The notes: generated from the letters alone by a model not told the origin. A stretch of DNA of 42,714 nucleotides from Chitinispirillum sp. (GCA_007115975.1 SKJJ01000022.1:1-42714), one strand, 5' to 3'; shown: positions 35,583 to 42,544, numbered from the stretch's first letter. A program made the numbers and translations.

Positions 35583-35656
35583 TGTTTATAGGGAAAACGG
35601 GCTGAATGTATTTTTATCATTTCCTAAAATCTTCTATTTTCCAGGGACTTTTGATT

Positions 35657-37384
35657 ATGATATTTGGAAACAGAAAGAATAAGCTGCTGTTAAGTTTAGG
35701 GATTTTTCTTGTAACTGGATGCGCTTACTTTAATGTATTCTACAATGCCAACCAGGCATATGATATGGCGCAACGAGAGCATAAAGAACTTATGGAAGAC
35801 CACCCGGACAGTCTCTATGTACATCCTCCCACAGGGGTCGTTTCAAATTACCAGAGAGCCATAGAGAAGTCGGCAAAGATGATGGATCTGCATGAGGAGA
35901 GCAGGTGGAATGAAGAGGGCGTTTTTCTCATCGCAAAATCATTGTATTACAAGGGTGACCATTTTCTGGCTTTACGACAACTCCGTTCCTTTCAGGAGCT
36001 GTATCCTGAAAGTGAACATATCCCCTTAAGCTATCTCTATAAAGCAAAGGCCAATATTATCACAGGAAATCTGGCAAAAGCAGAGGAACAGCTTGAGTTT
36101 ATTGTCGATAATTTCCCCCATATGGACAGTGATCATCAAATCACAATGCTTTTGGTTGAAGTAGCGCACAGGCGCGGAGGACGCTCTCAGGCGATTAACC
36201 TTCTGGAAAGAATTCTTCAAACCCCTCTTTCTGATATGGAAAGAGCACGGTTGCTGTTAAAAACAGCTGAGCTCTATATTGAAATGGGCCGTTTTGAAAG
36301 GGCTTATGGACTTCTGAACACCGTTCCAAGAAATCGTAGAACCCGGCAGATGCCTTTTATCTACAAAGTTGACCGGGCTCTGCTTGAATGTTATATGCAA
36401 AGAGACACACTCGATGTCGCTCTCGAATTTGTGGGGCAGATGGTTCGTAACAGGACATATTTTACTTATCGTGATGAGCTTTTGCTGGAAATGGGGTACA
36501 TATTACGGGATATGGACAGGACTGATGAAGCAATAGAGGTCTTCAACCGCTTGGCACGTGAGGATGAAACCGATCGTTCCACTATCTCCGGCAAAGCATG
36601 GATAGCCCTCGCAGACATATATCTGAGGCAAATAGGTGATCTTGAGAAGGCCGGGGACGCCTACTCAAATGCAGCAAGAACAACCGATACCTCTGTTTCA
36701 AACTTTGCATCCCGAAGGTTTGATGCCATTAAGCAGTTAGAGCTTCTGCGAAATCCTGATTCAACAGATACAAGAACACAGGAGTTGCGGGATTACAAGG
36801 TCGCTGAACTTTTCAAATTTGAGCTGAAAAATCCCGATTCCGCATTTTTTCAGTTTGTTAAGTTGTCTCAAGGGGACTGGGAAGATACGACTCTTATTCC
36901 CCGGTCTCTCTCTATGGCAGCCATTATTGCCCGATCTGAAATGGGGGATACTCTAACCTCTGACAGTCTCTTCAATGAGGTGATCGGCAACTATCCGGTA
37001 AGTAAGTATGCTCGTAATGCACAGATTATAATGCGTGCACCGGTAACTGTCGAGACCGATGTCGAGCTTGCTGATAAGGAGTACAGAAAAGCAGAAGAGC
37101 TCTACTACAATGAAGGAAATACTACAGAAGCGATACGAGTCTTCTTCAATATACACCGAGATTTTCCGGAGCTGGAAATTGCGCCAAAAAGTCTGTATGC
37201 CGCGGCCTATCTTACCGACAATGAACTGCAGAGAAACAGATCTGCAATGACGCTGTACCAGAGACTATGTGAGTTGTACCCGGAGAGTGAATACTGCACA
37301 CAAATGGCTGAACCACGAATCAATGCCGCACAAAATGCCATTGATTCCACGCAGAGCAGAGCCGTTGAAACCCGCACCGAATAG
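35657..37384 (+). CDS. TPR-containing lipoprotein
   Basis: From ATG 35657, with AGGGA upstream, this is a 575-residue lipoprotein. The signal segment ends in L-V-T-G-C, giving a lipidated Cys22, followed by A-Y-F-N-V-F-Y-N-A. An upstream ATG at 35606 is in frame but would bury the lipobox 17 residues further in, so I reject it. The mature part is a series of TPR-like helical pairs (about 60-330 and 440-560), including Y-Y-K-G-D-H-F-L-A-L-R-Q-L and L-Y-P-E-S-E motifs like those of outer-membrane assembly lipoproteins such as BamD and YbgF. A role in envelope assembly or secretion as a scaffold is inferred. I recall similar C-A-Y-x-N-x-F-Y-N-A proteins in Fibrobacterota. Confidence 0.8.
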   Translation: MIFGNRKNKLLLSLGIFLVTGCAYFNVFYNANQAYDMAQREHKELMEDHPDSLYVHPPTGVVSNYQRAIEKSAKMMDLHEESRWNEEGVFLIAKSLYYKGDHFLALRQLRSFQELYPESEHIPLSYLYKAKANIITGNLAKAEEQLEFIVDNFPHMDSDHQITMLLVEVAHRRGGRSQAINLLERILQTPLSDMERARLLLKTAELYIEMGRFERAYGLLNTVPRNRRTRQMPFIYKVDRALLECYMQRDTLDVALEFVGQMVRNRTYFTYRDELLLEMGYILRDMDRTDEAIEVFNRLAREDETDRSTISGKAWIALADIYLRQIGDLEKAGDAYSNAARTTDTSVSNFASRRFDAIKQLELLRNPDSTDTRTQELRDYKVAELFKFELKNPDSAFFQFVKLSQGDWEDTTLIPRSLSMAAIIARSEMGDTLTSDSLFNEVIGNYPVSKYARNAQIIMRAPVTVETDVELADKEYRKAEELYYNEGNTTEAIRVFFNIHRDFPELEIAPKSLYAAAYLTDNELQRNRSAMTLYQRLCELYPESEYCTQMAEPRINAAQNAIDSTQSRAVETRTE

Positions 37385-37557: not shown

Positions 37558-37734
37558 TATGCACTTGATTGGTGTTTAGGTAGTTCCGCTCACACTGAGC
37601 GTCCCGATTTCCGAATCGGGACAGGCGAGCTGTTCCCCTTTTCTGGAAAAATGTAGGAACACTTCGATACGGCCGATCGGAATCGTCCTACTCAGTGTGA
37701 GCGGCAAGATGTGCCACCACCAGTCAAGTGCATA
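37558..37734. repeat. nested inverted-repeat element with cloverleaf-like fold
   Basis: The outer arms are TATGCACTTGATTGGTG (37558-37574) and CACCAGTCAAGTGCATA (37718-37734), which pair at 16 of 17 positions, the other being G-T. The next stem is CCGCTCACACTGAG (37586-37599) with CTCAGTGTGAGCGG (37691-37704), 14 of 14. Inside are a hairpin GTCCCGATT/AATCGGGAC (37601-37622), a second TGTTCC/GGAACA with inner TTTTC/GAAAA (37631-37661), and a weaker third CGAT/ATCG around CCGATCGG (37665-37685). It ends 30 bases before the sigma factor frame. It could be a structured leader RNA, an independent RNA or a small mobile repeat. I do not recognise a known family. Confidence 0.85.
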
Positions 37735-37802
37735 ATAGGTAAGAAAGATGTAGCGGTTTATCGGTGTTCAGTCGTCTTAATGATAGAAAAGGGGAGACTG
37801 AT

Positions 37803-38309
37803 TTGGGGTCAGAGTCTTCAGGTGAATTACGGGATTTATACAAACAATATGCCTCAGTGGTTCACTCCCGCTGTGTATCAATTTTGAAGTCTGAAGATGA
37901 TGCATGGGATGCTACTCAGGAGGTTTTTATGAAGCTTAATAGAGCTCTTCCTACAATCAGAAACAAACAGGCCATTTTCTCCTGGCTGATGAGTGCCAGT
38001 ACCAATCACTGCATATCAGTGCTCAGAAGAAGAAAAACCATTGAATTTGATGAGAATATTCATCGGCAGGGTGAGGCGGATATCCCTGTGCAGGAGAAGA
38101 AACTGGCTATGAAAGAGCTGTTCAGGCGTTACTTTCTGCCCTGGAACAAAAAGGTCCAGCAGGTGCTCTTTTACACCTATATAGATGGATATAAGCAGCA
38201 GGAGATAGCAAAACTCACCGGGCTGGGGGAATCTACAATCAGAAAATATCTTACCAATTTTCGCCGGGCCTGTGGTGCTGGGGAAGTTAAGCCTGAGGAG
38301 GTATTATGA
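37803..38309 (+). CDS. ECF-like sigma factor of the caspase operon
   Basis: This is a sigma-70 family protein of 168 residues from TTG 37803, where GGGGAG (37791-37796) is well placed. An in-frame GTG at 37764 would add 13 residues but lacks a ribosome site. Region 2 has L-Y-K-Q-Y...D-D-A-W-D-A-T-Q-E-V-F-M-K-L and F-S-W-L-M. Region 4 has Y-K-Q-Q-E-I-A-K-L-T-G-L with S-T-I-R-K-Y-L. It is diverged from typical ECF factors, notably in region 2 (S-T-N-H-C-I-S-V-L-R-R-R). The stop overlaps the anti-sigma start by four bases (ATGA). The nested repeat directly upstream may control it. Target promoters are unknown; autoregulation is likely by analogy. Confidence 0.82.
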   Translation: MGSESSGELRDLYKQYASVVHSRCVSILKSEDDAWDATQEVFMKLNRALPTIRNKQAIFSWLMSASTNHCISVLRRRKTIEFDENIHRQGEADIPVQEKKLAMKELFRRYFLPWNKKVQQVLFYTYIDGYKQQEIAKLTGLGESTIRKYLTNFRRACGAGEVKPEEVL

Positions 38310-39106
38310 AACAGGAACCAGGACGGCTTGCACTTCAGAGATATTTCACCGGTGACCTTGAAGATGCCGATGCTCTTGAAATCAGATCTCATTTGGAAAA
38401 CTGTGCTGAGTGCAGCAGATACATAGAAGAGCTTGAAGCTGAGAAAAAACGTTTTTTGAATCTTCATCCGGTTGAAGAGTTTCTGGCTGCCGGTAAAAAG
38501 AAAAAAGTTCTCTTTGGGTTACCTGGTGTTATCCATTCTAAAGGATCTCTGGTGCCTGCATCGGTAGTGGCTCTGCTGTTACTTTTTATAGTTGCTCCTC
38601 TATGGTTTGCAGCTGTAAAAAACAGCAATGTACAGGAGTTTAGATATAAAGGATCGCAACAAATTCAGTTTCTGCTTAAAAGAGATGGAGTAATAGAGAA
38701 GGGGAATCTGTCTGAAACTTTCAGAGATGGTGACCAGATACAGGTTATGTATGAATCCTCAGGTTACCCTTATGTGGCTCTTTTCAGTGTTGACAATAAG
38801 GGTAATATTCATTTCTATCATCCGGATCACAGCTCTCTGTTCTGTACAGTTGATTCAGATTCCGGCACCGGTGCCTATTTCCCTTCGAGTATCATTGTCG
38901 ATGATCAGGGTGAGAATGAGCTCATAGTACTCATGCTCTCCAATGATGCAGTGAAAACAGTTGATGTAAAAAGTTGGATAGAAAATCAGCCTAAATTTGG
39001 TGGTCGTGATCTTGTTGGTCTGGAAAGTCAGCTGCAGTCAAATGTCCTTGGAGATGATTCTGAAATACACACTCTTTTAATAAGAAAACAGCAGGGAAAA
39101 CAGTGA
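38306..39106 (+). CDS. anti-sigma factor with outer DUF4384-like domain
   Basis: This 266-residue membrane protein has a ZAS motif His29-x3-Cys33-x2-Cys36 in its cytoplasmic part, which should hold the preceding sigma factor. One transmembrane helix lies at about residues 83-103. The outer part (about 110-255) has G-D-Q-I-Q-V-M-Y-E-S, Y-V-A-L-F-S-V-D-N-K-G-N-I-H-F-Y-H-P and a Y-F-P-S-S segment. This resembles DUF4384, a beta-rich domain I know from bacterial proteins that also carry caspase domains. Here it is on the anti-sigma factor while the caspase is the next gene. The start has GAGGAGG upstream, and the stop overlaps the next start (GTGA). The domain call is by eye. Confidence 0.8.
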   Translation: MKQEPGRLALQRYFTGDLEDADALEIRSHLENCAECSRYIEELEAEKKRFLNLHPVEEFLAAGKKKKVLFGLPGVIHSKGSLVPASVVALLLLFIVAPLWFAAVKNSNVQEFRYKGSQQIQFLLKRDGVIEKGNLSETFRDGDQIQVMYESSGYPYVALFSVDNKGNIHFYHPDHSSLFCTVDSDSGTGAYFPSSIIVDDQGENELIVLMLSNDAVKTVDVKSWIENQPKFGGRDLVGLESQLQSNVLGDDSEIHTLLIRKQQGKQ

Positions 39107-40620
39107 GAACGACAGCTTTTTCCCTTTGGGTTTTCTGTGTTGTCTCGCTCTGCGCTGCAAATCAGCGGTATGCCCTTCTTGTTGGGGCAGACCGGGGTGG
39201 TGATGAGCTTGCGGTATTAAAGTATGCCCAGTCGGATGCACAGCGGTTTGCAAATGTACTCAAAGGCCCGGGAGAGTTTTCTGATGGAACTATTACTACT
39301 CTTCTTGCCCCGGACAGCGCAGCGATTCACAAAGCACTCAATAAAATCAACGATGTTATACAGAGTAAACCTGATAAGAATACACTTCTGCTGTTCTATT
39401 ACTCCGGACATTCTGATGGGGAGTATCTGTTATTCGAAAATGACAGGTATCCACTTGGGAGTGTGAAAACCTTTCTGGACTCTTCGGGTGCAGATATCAG
39501 AATTGGAATATTTGATGCTTGTTATAGTGGTGCGGTTGTTGCATTCAGGGGTGGGAGGCGCGGTGATCCCTTCTTCATGGCCAGCGAAGAGAAAGTAAAG
39601 GGACAGGTGATAATATCCTCTTCTGCTGCTCACGAACGTGCCCAGGAGTCAGAGACTCTTCAGGGGTCAATATTTACCCACCATTGGCTTAACGGACTTA
39701 AAGGCAGCGCAGATCTTGATGGGGACCGGTATGTTACCCTGAACGAAGCCTATCGGTATGCCTATCATAAAACCATAGAGACATCAGCTTTAACCGGTGG
39801 TGGTCTGCAGCATCCTTCGTATCATTTCAATATTCAGGGGGAAGGTGAAATCCGCCTTACCAACCTGAACCGCTCAGTTTTAAGCGGTGTACTGTTTGAT
39901 AAAAGCTGTCATGGTGCATTTCTGGTTCTAAGCCCCACATTTGCAAATGTGTATGCTGATTTTAACAAGAAGAGCGGTAAAGAGACCTTTATCGCTCTTG
40001 CTCCCGGTGAATACAGTGCAATTAACGGCAGGGAAAGTGATGTTTATATAAAGCACTTTTCGGTCAGTGAAAGTGAGACGGTATATCTGACCAATAGCAT
40101 GCTGGTAAACAGACCTCTGGTTGATGTGACAAGAGTAAAAGGGCCTGAGCAGGCAGAATATGCACCTGCAACTCCGATTAATTACGATGATGCAAAGCTA
40201 AGTAAGTCAATTCAGTGGGGGCTTGGTACAGGTGTAATCTCTGGTTTCTGGAGCAACAGAGGTGCAGATATTTTACTTTCTGCTGTGGGGGTTTTCCCTC
40301 TGGAGGAGGAGAGAAGTCTGTATGGTGATCTGCAGGTTTTGCCCCTTAGAAAAAAGGTAGCTATTGGTGCCGGGGCCAATGTGTATAATCCCGTACTTGA
40401 CTTTGATATGTTTGCCGGAATGGGGGCTGCGCTGTGGTATGACCATCTCGGAGCCGACAGATTTGCACTTGCAGTACGGGCACAAACCGGTTTCAGCAGA
40501 AAAATCAGTGAGAGTATGGAGATTCAGGCACAAATTCCTTTTCTGTTTGTTTTTTCACGGGATATAGGGTTCAGGACCGGGATCGAAATGAGGGTGCTCT
40601 TTTCGGGAAATCGTTTGTAG
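39103..40620 (+). CDS. exported caspase-family (C14) protease with C-terminal beta-barrel-like domain
   Basis: This 505-residue protein starts at GTG, coupled to the anti-sigma gene. A signal peptide (about residues 1-19) is followed by a caspase-like domain (about 22-245). The catalytic His103 lies in Y-Y-S-G-H-S-D-G and Cys140 in D-A-C-Y-S-G. Prokaryotic caspases cut after specific residues, often Arg or Lys, in target proteins. A middle beta-rich part (about 250-360) follows. Residues about 370-505 look like outer-membrane strands, ending I-S-E-S-M-E-I-Q-A-Q-I-P then G-I-E-M-R-V-L-F. That tail resembles the end of the next protein, so the protease may be anchored in the outer membrane facing the periplasm. 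Its substrate is unknown; the anti-sigma outer domain is one candidate. Confidence 0.85.
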   Translation: MRTTAFSLWVFCVVSLCAANQRYALLVGADRGGDELAVLKYAQSDAQRFANVLKGPGEFSDGTITTLLAPDSAAIHKALNKINDVIQSKPDKNTLLLFYYSGHSDGEYLLFENDRYPLGSVKTFLDSSGADIRIGIFDACYSGAVVAFRGGRRGDPFFMASEEKVKGQVIISSSAAHERAQESETLQGSIFTHHWLNGLKGSADLDGDRYVTLNEAYRYAYHKTIETSALTGGGLQHPSYHFNIQGEGEIRLTNLNRSVLSGVLFDKSCHGAFLVLSPTFANVYADFNKKSGKETFIALAPGEYSAINGRESDVYIKHFSVSESETVYLTNSMLVNRPLVDVTRVKGPEQAEYAPATPINYDDAKLSKSIQWGLGTGVISGFWSNRGADILLSAVGVFPLEEERSLYGDLQVLPLRKKVAIGAGANVYNPVLDFDMFAGMGAALWYDHLGADRFALAVRAQTGFSRKISESMEIQAQIPFLFVFSRDIGFRTGIEMRVLFSGNRL

Positions 40621-40716: not shown

Positions 40717-41256
40717 ATGAAAAAAGTGATGCTTTTTGTGATTGTGTCGGGGGTTTTGGTCTGTTCGGCTATGGCTCAGAATACTACACCGCTGAAAATC
40801 TACAGTGGTGGTATCGGCGCAGGCGCCATGGTTGGTCTGGAGCCCGAAGATGATGCTTCATCCGGGCAGTTTTTAAAGTTGTCTTTCGTAAACATGTGGC
40901 AGTTCAGGGAGCAGGTTGCACTCTATGCTGATGTGAACTGGTTTGCACCGGGAAGAAATTTTGGTGCAGAGGGTGGTTTCAGTTTTATGTTCTCTACATC
41001 ATACTTCAGGCCCTTTTTCGGCTTTGGGGTAGGTGGCCACTCCTTTGAGAGTGAAGATGGTGATTTCAGCACCGATTTTGGCCCCTCAGCTACTGCGCAT
41101 ATCGGCTTTATGCTTGAAATCACAGAAACGGTACAAATCAGAGCGCGTGTTCCATATTATGTCGTTCTCAATGAGGCGCGCAATCAGGGTGCCGGGTTTG
41201 ATGTCGGTATAATGTTTAAAAGCCCGCTGAGCGGGGTAAAGAGGATCCATCCCTAA
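40717..41256 (+). CDS. small outer-membrane beta-barrel protein
   Basis: This 179-residue protein has a signal peptide with cleavage after A-M-A near residue 20. The mature part alternates hydrophobic and polar residues with many glycines and aromatics, as in eight-stranded OmpA/OmpX-like barrels. Its C-terminal part (I-T-E-T-V-Q-I-R-A-R-V-P ... G-F-D-V-G-I-M-F) matches the end of the upstream caspase in pattern and spacing, suggesting a shared barrel family. It lies 96 bases after the caspase gene in the same direction, with GTGAGGG some bases before the ATG. It is probably part of the same system or a duplicate of its barrel. Confidence 0.72.
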   Translation: MKKVMLFVIVSGVLVCSAMAQNTTPLKIYSGGIGAGAMVGLEPEDDASSGQFLKLSFVNMWQFREQVALYADVNWFAPGRNFGAEGGFSFMFSTSYFRPFFGFGVGGHSFESEDGDFSTDFGPSATAHIGFMLEITETVQIRARVPYYVVLNEARNQGAGFDVGIMFKSPLSGVKRIHP

Positions 41257-41301
41257 ATGTGGTTATTAGTGAATAAAACAGGTACTTCACAGGAGATAGG
41301 T

Positions 41302-41859
41302 ATGAAAAAATTATTAATCATCTCAGTTTCGGCAGTGGCTGTAGTGGTGTCCGGTTCTTTTGCCGGGGAACAGAACGTCTCGACCCAAAACAGAAACATA
41401 ACGGTTATTCAGGGACATTCGACTGCAGATGGCAGCTCGGATATAACTGAACGGGTATTGGAAGAGTGTATTGTTTCTCTTCCGGCCCTTGGGAGCCTTG
41501 ATGCCCTGGTTGATGCTCAAACAGAGTTTCTTCGGGAGATAAACGGCGAACCGGGAAACAACGATTTCAGAAAATTCTATTCGGCTGCTATCGATATCAA
41601 CTACATGCTTCATCAGAAAGTACTGGTAATCGTAACAAGCAGTACTGTTCAGGCGCAGGATCCGGTGATGAAGGTGGTGGAGAGAAATGTTAAGCAATCG
41701 GTGCGGTTTGAATCAAATCCTGCCAATGGTGATATGTATGCCGGCAGATCCAACAGACAGTATTATTTCAGTACAAGGGAAGGTGCTGTTGAAGATGCAA
41801 AGGCCAGAGCTGCAGTATGGTTAAAGCAGCAGAGTGCTGTTGTTTGCACTGGTGATTAG
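41302..41859 (+). CDS. secreted protein of unknown function
   Basis: ATG 41302 is preferred, because AGGAGATAGG lies just upstream and a clean signal peptide follows (M-K-K-L-L..., cleavage after S-F-A near residue 21). An earlier in-frame ATG at 41257 lacks both. The 185-residue product has a mature domain with D-I-N-Y-M-L-H-Q-K-V-L-V-I-V and a C-terminal A-V-E-D-A-K-A-R-A-A-V-W-L. The latter is a helix type seen in lipoprotein or LPP20-like domains, though I cannot name the family. The LpoB gene follows after 91 bases, and such small exported proteins are often grouped with LpoB homologues. It is probably periplasmic. Confidence 0.65.
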   Translation: MKKLLIISVSAVAVVVSGSFAGEQNVSTQNRNITVIQGHSTADGSSDITERVLEECIVSLPALGSLDALVDAQTEFLREINGEPGNNDFRKFYSAAIDINYMLHQKVLVIVTSSTVQAQDPVMKVVERNVKQSVRFESNPANGDMYAGRSNRQYYFSTREGAVEDAKARAAVWLKQQSAVVCTGD

Positions 41860-41950: not shown

Positions 41951-42544
41951 ATGTTCAGCTTTAAATCGGTTGCTTCAATCTTGCTGCTGGTGCTGATTGC
42001 TGGTTGTTCAACAAAAGTGGCACGTGTGGATACCGCTTCAACAATTGACCTTACAGGCAGATGGAATGATACAGATTCCAGACTTGTTGCTGAGGAGATG
42101 ATCAATGATGCTCTCAATCAGCGCTGGCTGTACAGTTGGGAAGCAAAAAATCAGCGCCCAACGGTAATTGTCGGAAATATTAGCAACAGAAGTCACGAGC
42201 ATATCAATACCCAGACCTTTACGCGGAACATCGAGCGGGCACTGCTCAACAGTGGAAGGGTCGATTTTGTAGCAACACGGGATGACCGTGAACAGATCCG
42301 TGAGGAGAGGTTGGATCAGGGTGAACATGCTTCCGTTTATACCCAAAAGCAGATGGGAGAAGAGTACGGAGCAGATCTGATGATGATGGGTACCATCAAT
42401 TCCATAACCGATCAGGAAGGGCGCCGGGCTGTTATCTACTACCAGGTGAATATGGAGCTTGTGGAAATAGAGTCCAACAGGAAAGTCTGGATTGGTGAGA
42501 AGCAGATCAAGAAATATGTTGAGCGTGCAACAACAAAGTTTTGA
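41951..42544 (+). CDS. LpoB-family outer-membrane lipoprotein
   Basis: This 197-residue lipoprotein has a lipobox L-I-A-G-C with Cys19 and a very good ribosome site (AAGGAGG) before the ATG. Family motifs are visible: D-L-T-G-R-W-N-D-T-D-S-R near residue 33, V-G-N-I-S-N-R-S-H-E-H-I, D-D-R-E-Q-I-R-E-E-R, G-A-D-L-M-M-M-G-T-I and a final Y-Q-V-N-M-E-L-V-E-I. In E. coli, LpoB activates the peptidoglycan synthase PBP1B from the outer membrane. This version is the broader family form, which also occurs in bacteria where no such partner is proven. A partially seen lipoprotein gene follows after 36 bases. Confidence 0.85.
   Translation: MFSFKSVASILLLVLIAGCSTKVARVDTASTIDLTGRWNDTDSRLVAEEMINDALNQRWLYSWEAKNQRPTVIVGNISNRSHEHINTQTFTRNIERALLNSGRVDFVATRDDREQIREERLDQGEHASVYTQKQMGEEYGADLMMMGTINSITDQEGRRAVIYYQVNMELVEIESNRKVWIGEKQIKKYVERATTKF

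Follow-up and report, generated by a model that had tools for sequence, protein, structure and literature searches.

To our knowledge, bacterial caspases are common and most of them are without a known substrate. Control of a sigma factor by a caspase-fold protease has been described for the CRISPR-linked Craspase (DiCASP), in which the TPR-CHAT protease Csx29 of the RNA-activated Cas7-11-Csx29 complex cleaves the inhibitor Csx30, freeing the ECF-type CASP-sigma (PMC10028731). A protease likewise releases a sigma factor from its anti-sigma factor in the CalpL-CalpT-CalpS system, where CalpL is a Lon-family protease with a SAVED sensor that is activated by cyclic oligoadenylate (PMC11229360). 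In the DegS-RseA-RseP sigma-E relay, as in other regulated intramembrane proteolysis, an envelope signal leads to a site-1 cut of a transmembrane anti-sigma factor outside the membrane, made by an inner-membrane HtrA-type serine protease. Caspase-superfamily genes that adjoin ECF sigma genes have also been noted, namely caspase genes together with an ECF sigma factor and DUF1822 in the EACC2 systems (PMC8195603) and CHAT genes with ECF54 (PMC8999054); in the accessible parts of these two papers proteolytic activation is proposed, and a DUF4384-type transmembrane anti-sigma factor, a signal peptide or an outer-membrane barrel is not described there.

The window analysed here, a stretch of 42,714 nucleotides from Chitinispirillum sp. 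(GCA_007115975.1 SKJJ01000022.1:1-42714), contains overlapping genes for an ECF sigma factor, a membrane anti-sigma factor and an exported caspase (Table 1). As in Craspase, a caspase-fold protease would cleave a sigma inhibitor and thereby allow an ECF-type sigma factor to act, which probably autoregulates its own locus. However, the Craspase inhibitor is not a zf-HC2 transmembrane anti-sigma factor, and the protease in the window is not a cytoplasmic CHAT protease bound to a CRISPR effector but an exported, membrane-tethered C14 protein with a predicted barrel. An RseP-type site-2 cut is expected here as it is in the sigma-E relay, and the genome encodes such a protease (M50 family, E 4.5e-65) with a putative action on this anti-sigma factor; the site-1 enzyme, in contrast, would be a barrel-fused caspase. 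The statement in the original prediction that a caspase-controlled sigma switch would be novel was therefore too strong, since Craspase has been published and the adjacency of caspase and ECF genes is noted in the accessible parts of the EACC2 and ECF54 papers. Release of a sigma factor by the caspase family is already known; new here is the trans-envelope variant, in which a caspase with a predicted outer-membrane anchor is combined with a DUF4384-type anti-sigma factor. A search of openly accessible papers found no description of an exported, outer-membrane-tethered caspase together with a transmembrane DUF4384-type anti-sigma factor.

Table 1. Features of the sigma/anti-sigma/caspase cassette and its surroundings in the window
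Feature	Position	Strand	Basis or remark
Predicted autoregulatory ECF promoter, GTAGCG (37750-37755) - N17 - CGTCTT (37773-37778)	37750..37778	+	
ECF sigma factor (regions 2 and 4)	37803..38309	+	TTG start; Pfam/NCBIfam matches
Membrane anti-sigma factor	38306..39106	+	zf-HC2 domain, TM helix, juxtamembrane linker, DUF4384-like periplasmic domain
Anti-sigma predicted TM helix, aa 84-105	38555..38620	+	AF2 helix; strongly hydrophobic segment
K115-G116, predicted caspase cleavage site in anti-sigma	38648..38653	+	Conservation; end of 107-115 pLDDT<50 segment
Periplasmic beta domain, DUF4384-like, aa 120-261	38663..39088	+	AF2; DUF4384 matches in relatives
Exported C14 caspase with predicted C-terminal outer-membrane barrel fusion	39103..40620	+	
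Caspase signal peptide, aa 1-19	39103..39159	+	Sequence; hydrophobic N-termini in most relatives
Catalytic His103	39409..39411	+	Invariant, 109/109
Catalytic Cys140	39520..39522	+	Invariant, 109/109
R149-G150, predicted autoprocessing site, p20/p10 loop	39547..39552	+	Abuts pLDDT<50 segment 150-159
Beta domain between caspase domain and barrel, aa about 239-337	39817..40113	+	AF2
K346-G347, predicted cleavage site, caspase part/barrel linker	40138..40143	+	Inside pLDDT<50 segment 342-366
8-stranded C-terminal OmpA/NspA-like barrel	40213..40605	+	AF2: eight long strands; Foldseek
Separate exported barrel protein, kin of the caspase's own barrel	40717..41256	+	phmmer cross-hits

Both four-base overlaps claimed for the locus are present, ATGA at 38306-38309 between the sigma and anti-sigma genes and GTGA at 39103-39106 between the anti-sigma and caspase genes. 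The longest ORF for the sigma factor begins at the GTG at 37764, and the TTG at 37803, which has a ribosome binding site, fits better as the start because the longer ORF contains, in its upstream portion, a conserved -10 element of the ECF type (CGTCTT, 37773-37778). Pfam matches above the cut-off were obtained for all three proteins: Sigma70_r2 and Sigma70_r4_2 in the sigma factor, zf-HC2, narrowly, in the anti-sigma factor (23.3 versus 22.2) and Peptidase_C14 in the caspase (37.7 versus 21.4 bits). The NCBIfam model for EACC1-associated caspases (NF047832) gave 71.6 bits with the window caspase, below its curated cut-off of 140 bits.

The cassette is a widely conserved module that is present in at least six phyla. 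A search of the class with the anti-sigma factor alone found matches in 21 of 40 genomes, and in nearly all of the 29 regions around these matches, counted on contigs of sufficient length, the sigma gene lies upstream and the caspase gene downstream in the same order. Some genomes of the class hold two to four diverged copies with this order, and the genome of the window has a single copy of such a caspase. The same 40 genomes contain 42 C14 matches, 28 of which are the caspases of cassettes found through the anti-sigma factor, and several more belong to diverged cassettes. Scanning 85,000 species genomes with the caspase alone yielded 80 loci in Fibrobacterota, Myxococcota, Acidobacteria, Spirochaetes, Gemmatimonadetes, Bdellovibrio-like and other lineages; an anti-sigma gene is located at 73 of them, a recognised sigma gene at 64, and a start codon giving the four-base overlap at 47. 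The survey of three-gene co-occurrence thus bears out a conserved neighbourhood. This pattern is not followed by one group of Fibrimonadales caspases and by a few cases that are orphans or lie at contig edges; caspases without an adjacent anti-sigma gene are those of L081, L084, L099, L102, L107 and L129. A second, remote branch of sigma/anti-sigma/caspase loci was found in Myxococcota (L182, L203, L212-L214, L216-L220, L223), with caspases mostly of the lipobox type. One record titled Comamonas sp. KCTC 72670 (L131) holds a cassette of the myxobacterial type and may be misnamed.

The caspase was expected to be exported and catalytically intact, and this agrees with its signal-peptide-like N-terminus and with a His103/Cys140 dyad that is kept in 29 of 29 relatives from the class and throughout the wider set. 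The AlphaFold2 (AF2) model of the mature protein (56 sequences, pLDDT 90; precursor numbering, used throughout, is mature numbering plus 19) comprises a caspase domain followed by a beta domain and, at the C-terminus, eight long strands, and only two segments, 150-159 and 342-366 of the precursor, have a pLDDT below 50. By Foldseek, the caspase part resembles legumain and caspase-4, and the C-terminus resembles the barrels of OmpA (OmpA-TM), NspA and OprF. Since an eight-stranded OmpA-like barrel is predicted at the C-terminus, the caspase is predicted to be anchored in the outer membrane and to hang into the periplasm. Thus, the term periplasmic caspase holds as far as export is concerned, and has to be amended for a protein that is not simply periplasmic. 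The original prediction mentioned neither this barrel nor the [KR]-Gly sites described below.

With its zf-HC2 domain, TM helix and adjacent sigma gene, the anti-sigma factor belongs to the class I (zf-HC2) membrane anti-sigma factors; some relatives lack the zinc ligands. Its AlphaFold2 model (alignment of 71 sequences) has a pLDDT of 88 and a sole segment below 50, residues 107-115; a Foldseek search of the PDB with this model found nothing significant. The outer domain had been said to resemble DUF4384. Pfam does not place this domain (PF14326) in the window protein itself, where the match stays below the cut-off (18.4 versus 27 bits, E 0.0023) and which we therefore do not count as a DUF4384 protein, and the resemblance stands at the level of the family. 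Matches to DUF4384 were found in 22 of 26 Fibrobacterota anti-sigma relatives (E<0.1; best 2.9e-8), those of the G033, G040, G019 and G045 cassettes score at or above the Pfam cut-off, and 4 of 71 anti-sigma factors reach E<=5e-6. Cassette anti-sigma factors account for most of the DUF4384 matches obtained from eight diverse genomes, and several of them lie above the cut-off. These comparisons support the view that the outer domain of the window protein is a divergent DUF4384 relative, at family level only. At one further locus (L260, G019:C1) an exported caspase without a sigma neighbour adjoins an exported DUF4384 protein. This pairing and the DUF4384 cassettes fit a physical relationship between DUF4384 and caspase, although they are not proof of it.

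The most conserved feature of the anti-sigma factor is a Lys-Gly pair, K115-G116. Among 97 alignable sequences from different phyla, position 115 is K in 96 and R in the other one and position 116 is G in all 97, which makes this the best conserved pair of the protein, ahead of the zinc ligands (consensus R-x-K↓G, with the arrow at the expected cut). The caspase, compared in 109 sequences, has pairs of the same kind at two places. Positions 149-150 are [KR]-G in 109 of 109 sequences (consensus T-R-x-K↓GG), and in the linker to the barrel, otherwise unconserved, position 346 is R in 57 and K in 51 sequences, followed by G in 107 of 108. All three [KR]-Gly pairs lie in or directly at predicted disordered segments. 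In the remote Myxococcota branch the pair is found in the N-terminal tether of the lipoprotein caspases (EKGG, AKGR), and therefore the [KR]-Gly pair follows the tether; the anti-sigma linker in this branch reads GEKG, GVKG or RDKG.

In two controls these pairs were mostly missing outside cassettes. Among C14 caspases without a sigma neighbour, [KR]G after the catalytic Cys was limited to two chance RG matches, and none of those examined had the KG-G loop of the cassette caspases. A [KR]G in the 35 residues that follow the TM helix is present in one of about 20 zf-HC2 membrane anti-sigma factors without a caspase neighbour, in contrast to six of six with one. The agreement between the sites is not complete, since the Arg at P3 is missing from the loop of the type-1 caspases (A-F-[KR]↓G), yet kept in most type-1 anti-sigma factors. 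Covariation at P2 between the anti-sigma and caspase sites looked strong (20 matches versus 7.5 expected; 0 of 5000 shuffles) but failed a sister-pair control, in which 22 own and 16 swapped matches were counted (Fisher p 0.35), and was dropped as evidence of co-specificity. Thus, co-specificity is not established at the level of single residues. The sole anti-sigma factor with R at P1 (L032) is from the same genus as the window, and the caspases of this genus carry R in the loop pair, which is an anecdote only.

A basic residue at P1 is also what the expected specificity of the caspase would call for. D45 and D138 are invariant across the caspase set and correspond, in the alignment, to the aspartates of the GCxND and DSC motifs of metacaspases; in TbMCA2 these positions are Asp95 and Asp211, which line the proposed S1 pocket (PMC4357240). 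Metacaspases have a strict preference for Arg/Lys, and in several type II metacaspases activating cleavage depends on a conserved basic residue (PMC4357240). Because the acidic S1-type residues match those of these Arg/Lys cutters, Lys/Arg at P1 of all three sites is expected to be what the caspase recognises. With its His/Cys dyad, the two proposed S1 aspartates and the expected Lys/Arg preference the enzyme would resemble metacaspases and orthocaspases (MEROPS C14B), from which it differs by its signal peptide, beta domain and outer-membrane barrel.

Nearly all type-1 cassettes are preceded by a bipartite element, TGAGCG-N17-CGTCTA; in the 3.9 Mb genome, the strict pattern matches nowhere but at the predicted promoter in the window. 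In genomes of other phyla, the element upstream of the sigma gene is GGTGACA-N15-GGTGTT; ten such genomes contain 19 matches to it, and a reversed control gave none. Since conserved promoters lie upstream of the sigma gene, the module is probably autoregulated. Matches to GGTGACA-N15-GGTGTT also lie away from cassettes (L276-L293), in several cases upstream of genes for exported or membrane proteins in Fibrobacter and Corallococcus genomes, and form a candidate regulon.

Of the routes proposed originally, cleavage of the anti-sigma factor by the caspase is thus partly supported, with strong comparative evidence in its favour, because K115-G116 is the most conserved anti-sigma feature and lies in a disordered juxtamembrane linker, because it matches the caspase loop motif and a metacaspase-type P1, and because the site is missing from most anti-sigma factors without a caspase neighbour. 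The best explanation of the locus, which we consider likely, is an autoregulated trans-envelope module in which the caspase makes the site-1 cut; its cleavage steps, its signal and the direction of information flow we infer as follows. The membrane anti-sigma factor would sequester the sigma factor through its cytoplasmic domain, and the exported caspase would be kept at the outer membrane by its C-terminal barrel as a tethered precursor, or by an N-terminal lipid in one other branch. An envelope signal, perhaps sensed through the barrel or through docking of the DUF4384-like domain, would activate the caspase, which would then cut its own p20/p10 loop and its own tether at [KR]↓G, and the anti-sigma factor at K115↓G116, some ten residues from the inner membrane on its periplasmic side. 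The RseP-type protease of the genome would finish the anti-sigma factor, and the freed sigma factor would direct transcription of its own operon and of a small number of other genes, most of them for exported proteins. That such a relay, with a barrel-anchored zymogen that cuts itself and the anti-sigma factor at the same motif and without CRISPR, applies broadly is a claim towards which we lean only slightly.

The strongest competing explanation, which we regard as unlikely, is that the caspase is an output only. The sigma factor would induce the operon and the caspase would then act on other envelope proteins or kill the cell, while another protease makes the site-1 cut and the KG pair serves that protease or the fold. 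The location of the caspase gene in an operon that the sigma factor probably transcribes would agree with this, as would the few orphan caspases that keep KG sites without an adjacent anti-sigma gene. However, the anti-sigma KG pair is largely limited to caspase-linked anti-sigma factors and shares the R-x-K↓G form with the caspase loop, and a lone output gene need not stay beside an anti-sigma gene across phyla. Less probable still is a docking or pseudo-substrate role, in which the KG linker is not cut and release without cleavage is the signal, the linker and the DUF4384-like domain keeping the caspase inactive or the caspase capping the anti-sigma factor. Against this speak the catalytic and metacaspase-type S1 residues, invariant in 109 of 109 caspases, and the presence of the same pair at the caspase's own expected processing positions, even if the location of KG pairs in tethers and the co-occurrence of DUF4384 and caspase domains elsewhere, for instance the exported DUF4384 protein beside an exported caspase, would suit such a role. 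Bacterial caspases serve in defence and PADLOC gave a weak caspase match (21 bits), but a role in defence or cell death, with phage or envelope attack activating the caspase, is very improbable for an exported enzyme with ECF/anti-sigma partners and a synteny that is vertically conserved within the family, and PADLOC returned no further defence matches for the three proteins. A chance neighbourhood, or an over-reading of the overlaps, is ruled out by the 73 of 80 loci found from the caspase alone that hold an anti-sigma gene, and by a gene order shared by at least six phyla and by paralogous cassettes within a single genome.

Cleavage of the anti-sigma factor by the caspase, if true, would establish a new class of site-1 protease, a signalling route from the outer to the inner membrane across many phyla, and a non-lethal signalling role for caspase-fold proteases outside CRISPR. 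For this caspase, substrate, cut site, tether and promoter are suggested by sequence alone, and the carriers of the cassette include organisms that can be cultivated in the laboratory (myxobacteria).

The surroundings of the cassette are in part conserved as well. A TPR lipoprotein similar to T9SS PorW/SprE (35606-37384; 143 bits, with the NCBIfam cut-off of 250 not reached) is the upstream neighbour in most type-1 cassettes. Downstream, the separate barrel protein keeps its place beside the cassette in most type-1 loci, and an exported protein of unknown kind (41257-41859) is kept in most of them between this barrel and an LpoB-like lipoprotein (41951-42544; PF13036, 140 bits). Directly upstream of the cassette promoter lies a 177-bp inverted-repeat element (37558-37734) with arms of 17 bp and 14 bp; counting itself it has 32 matches in the genome, mostly partial and dispersed, and it looks like a MITE or a REP-like repeat.
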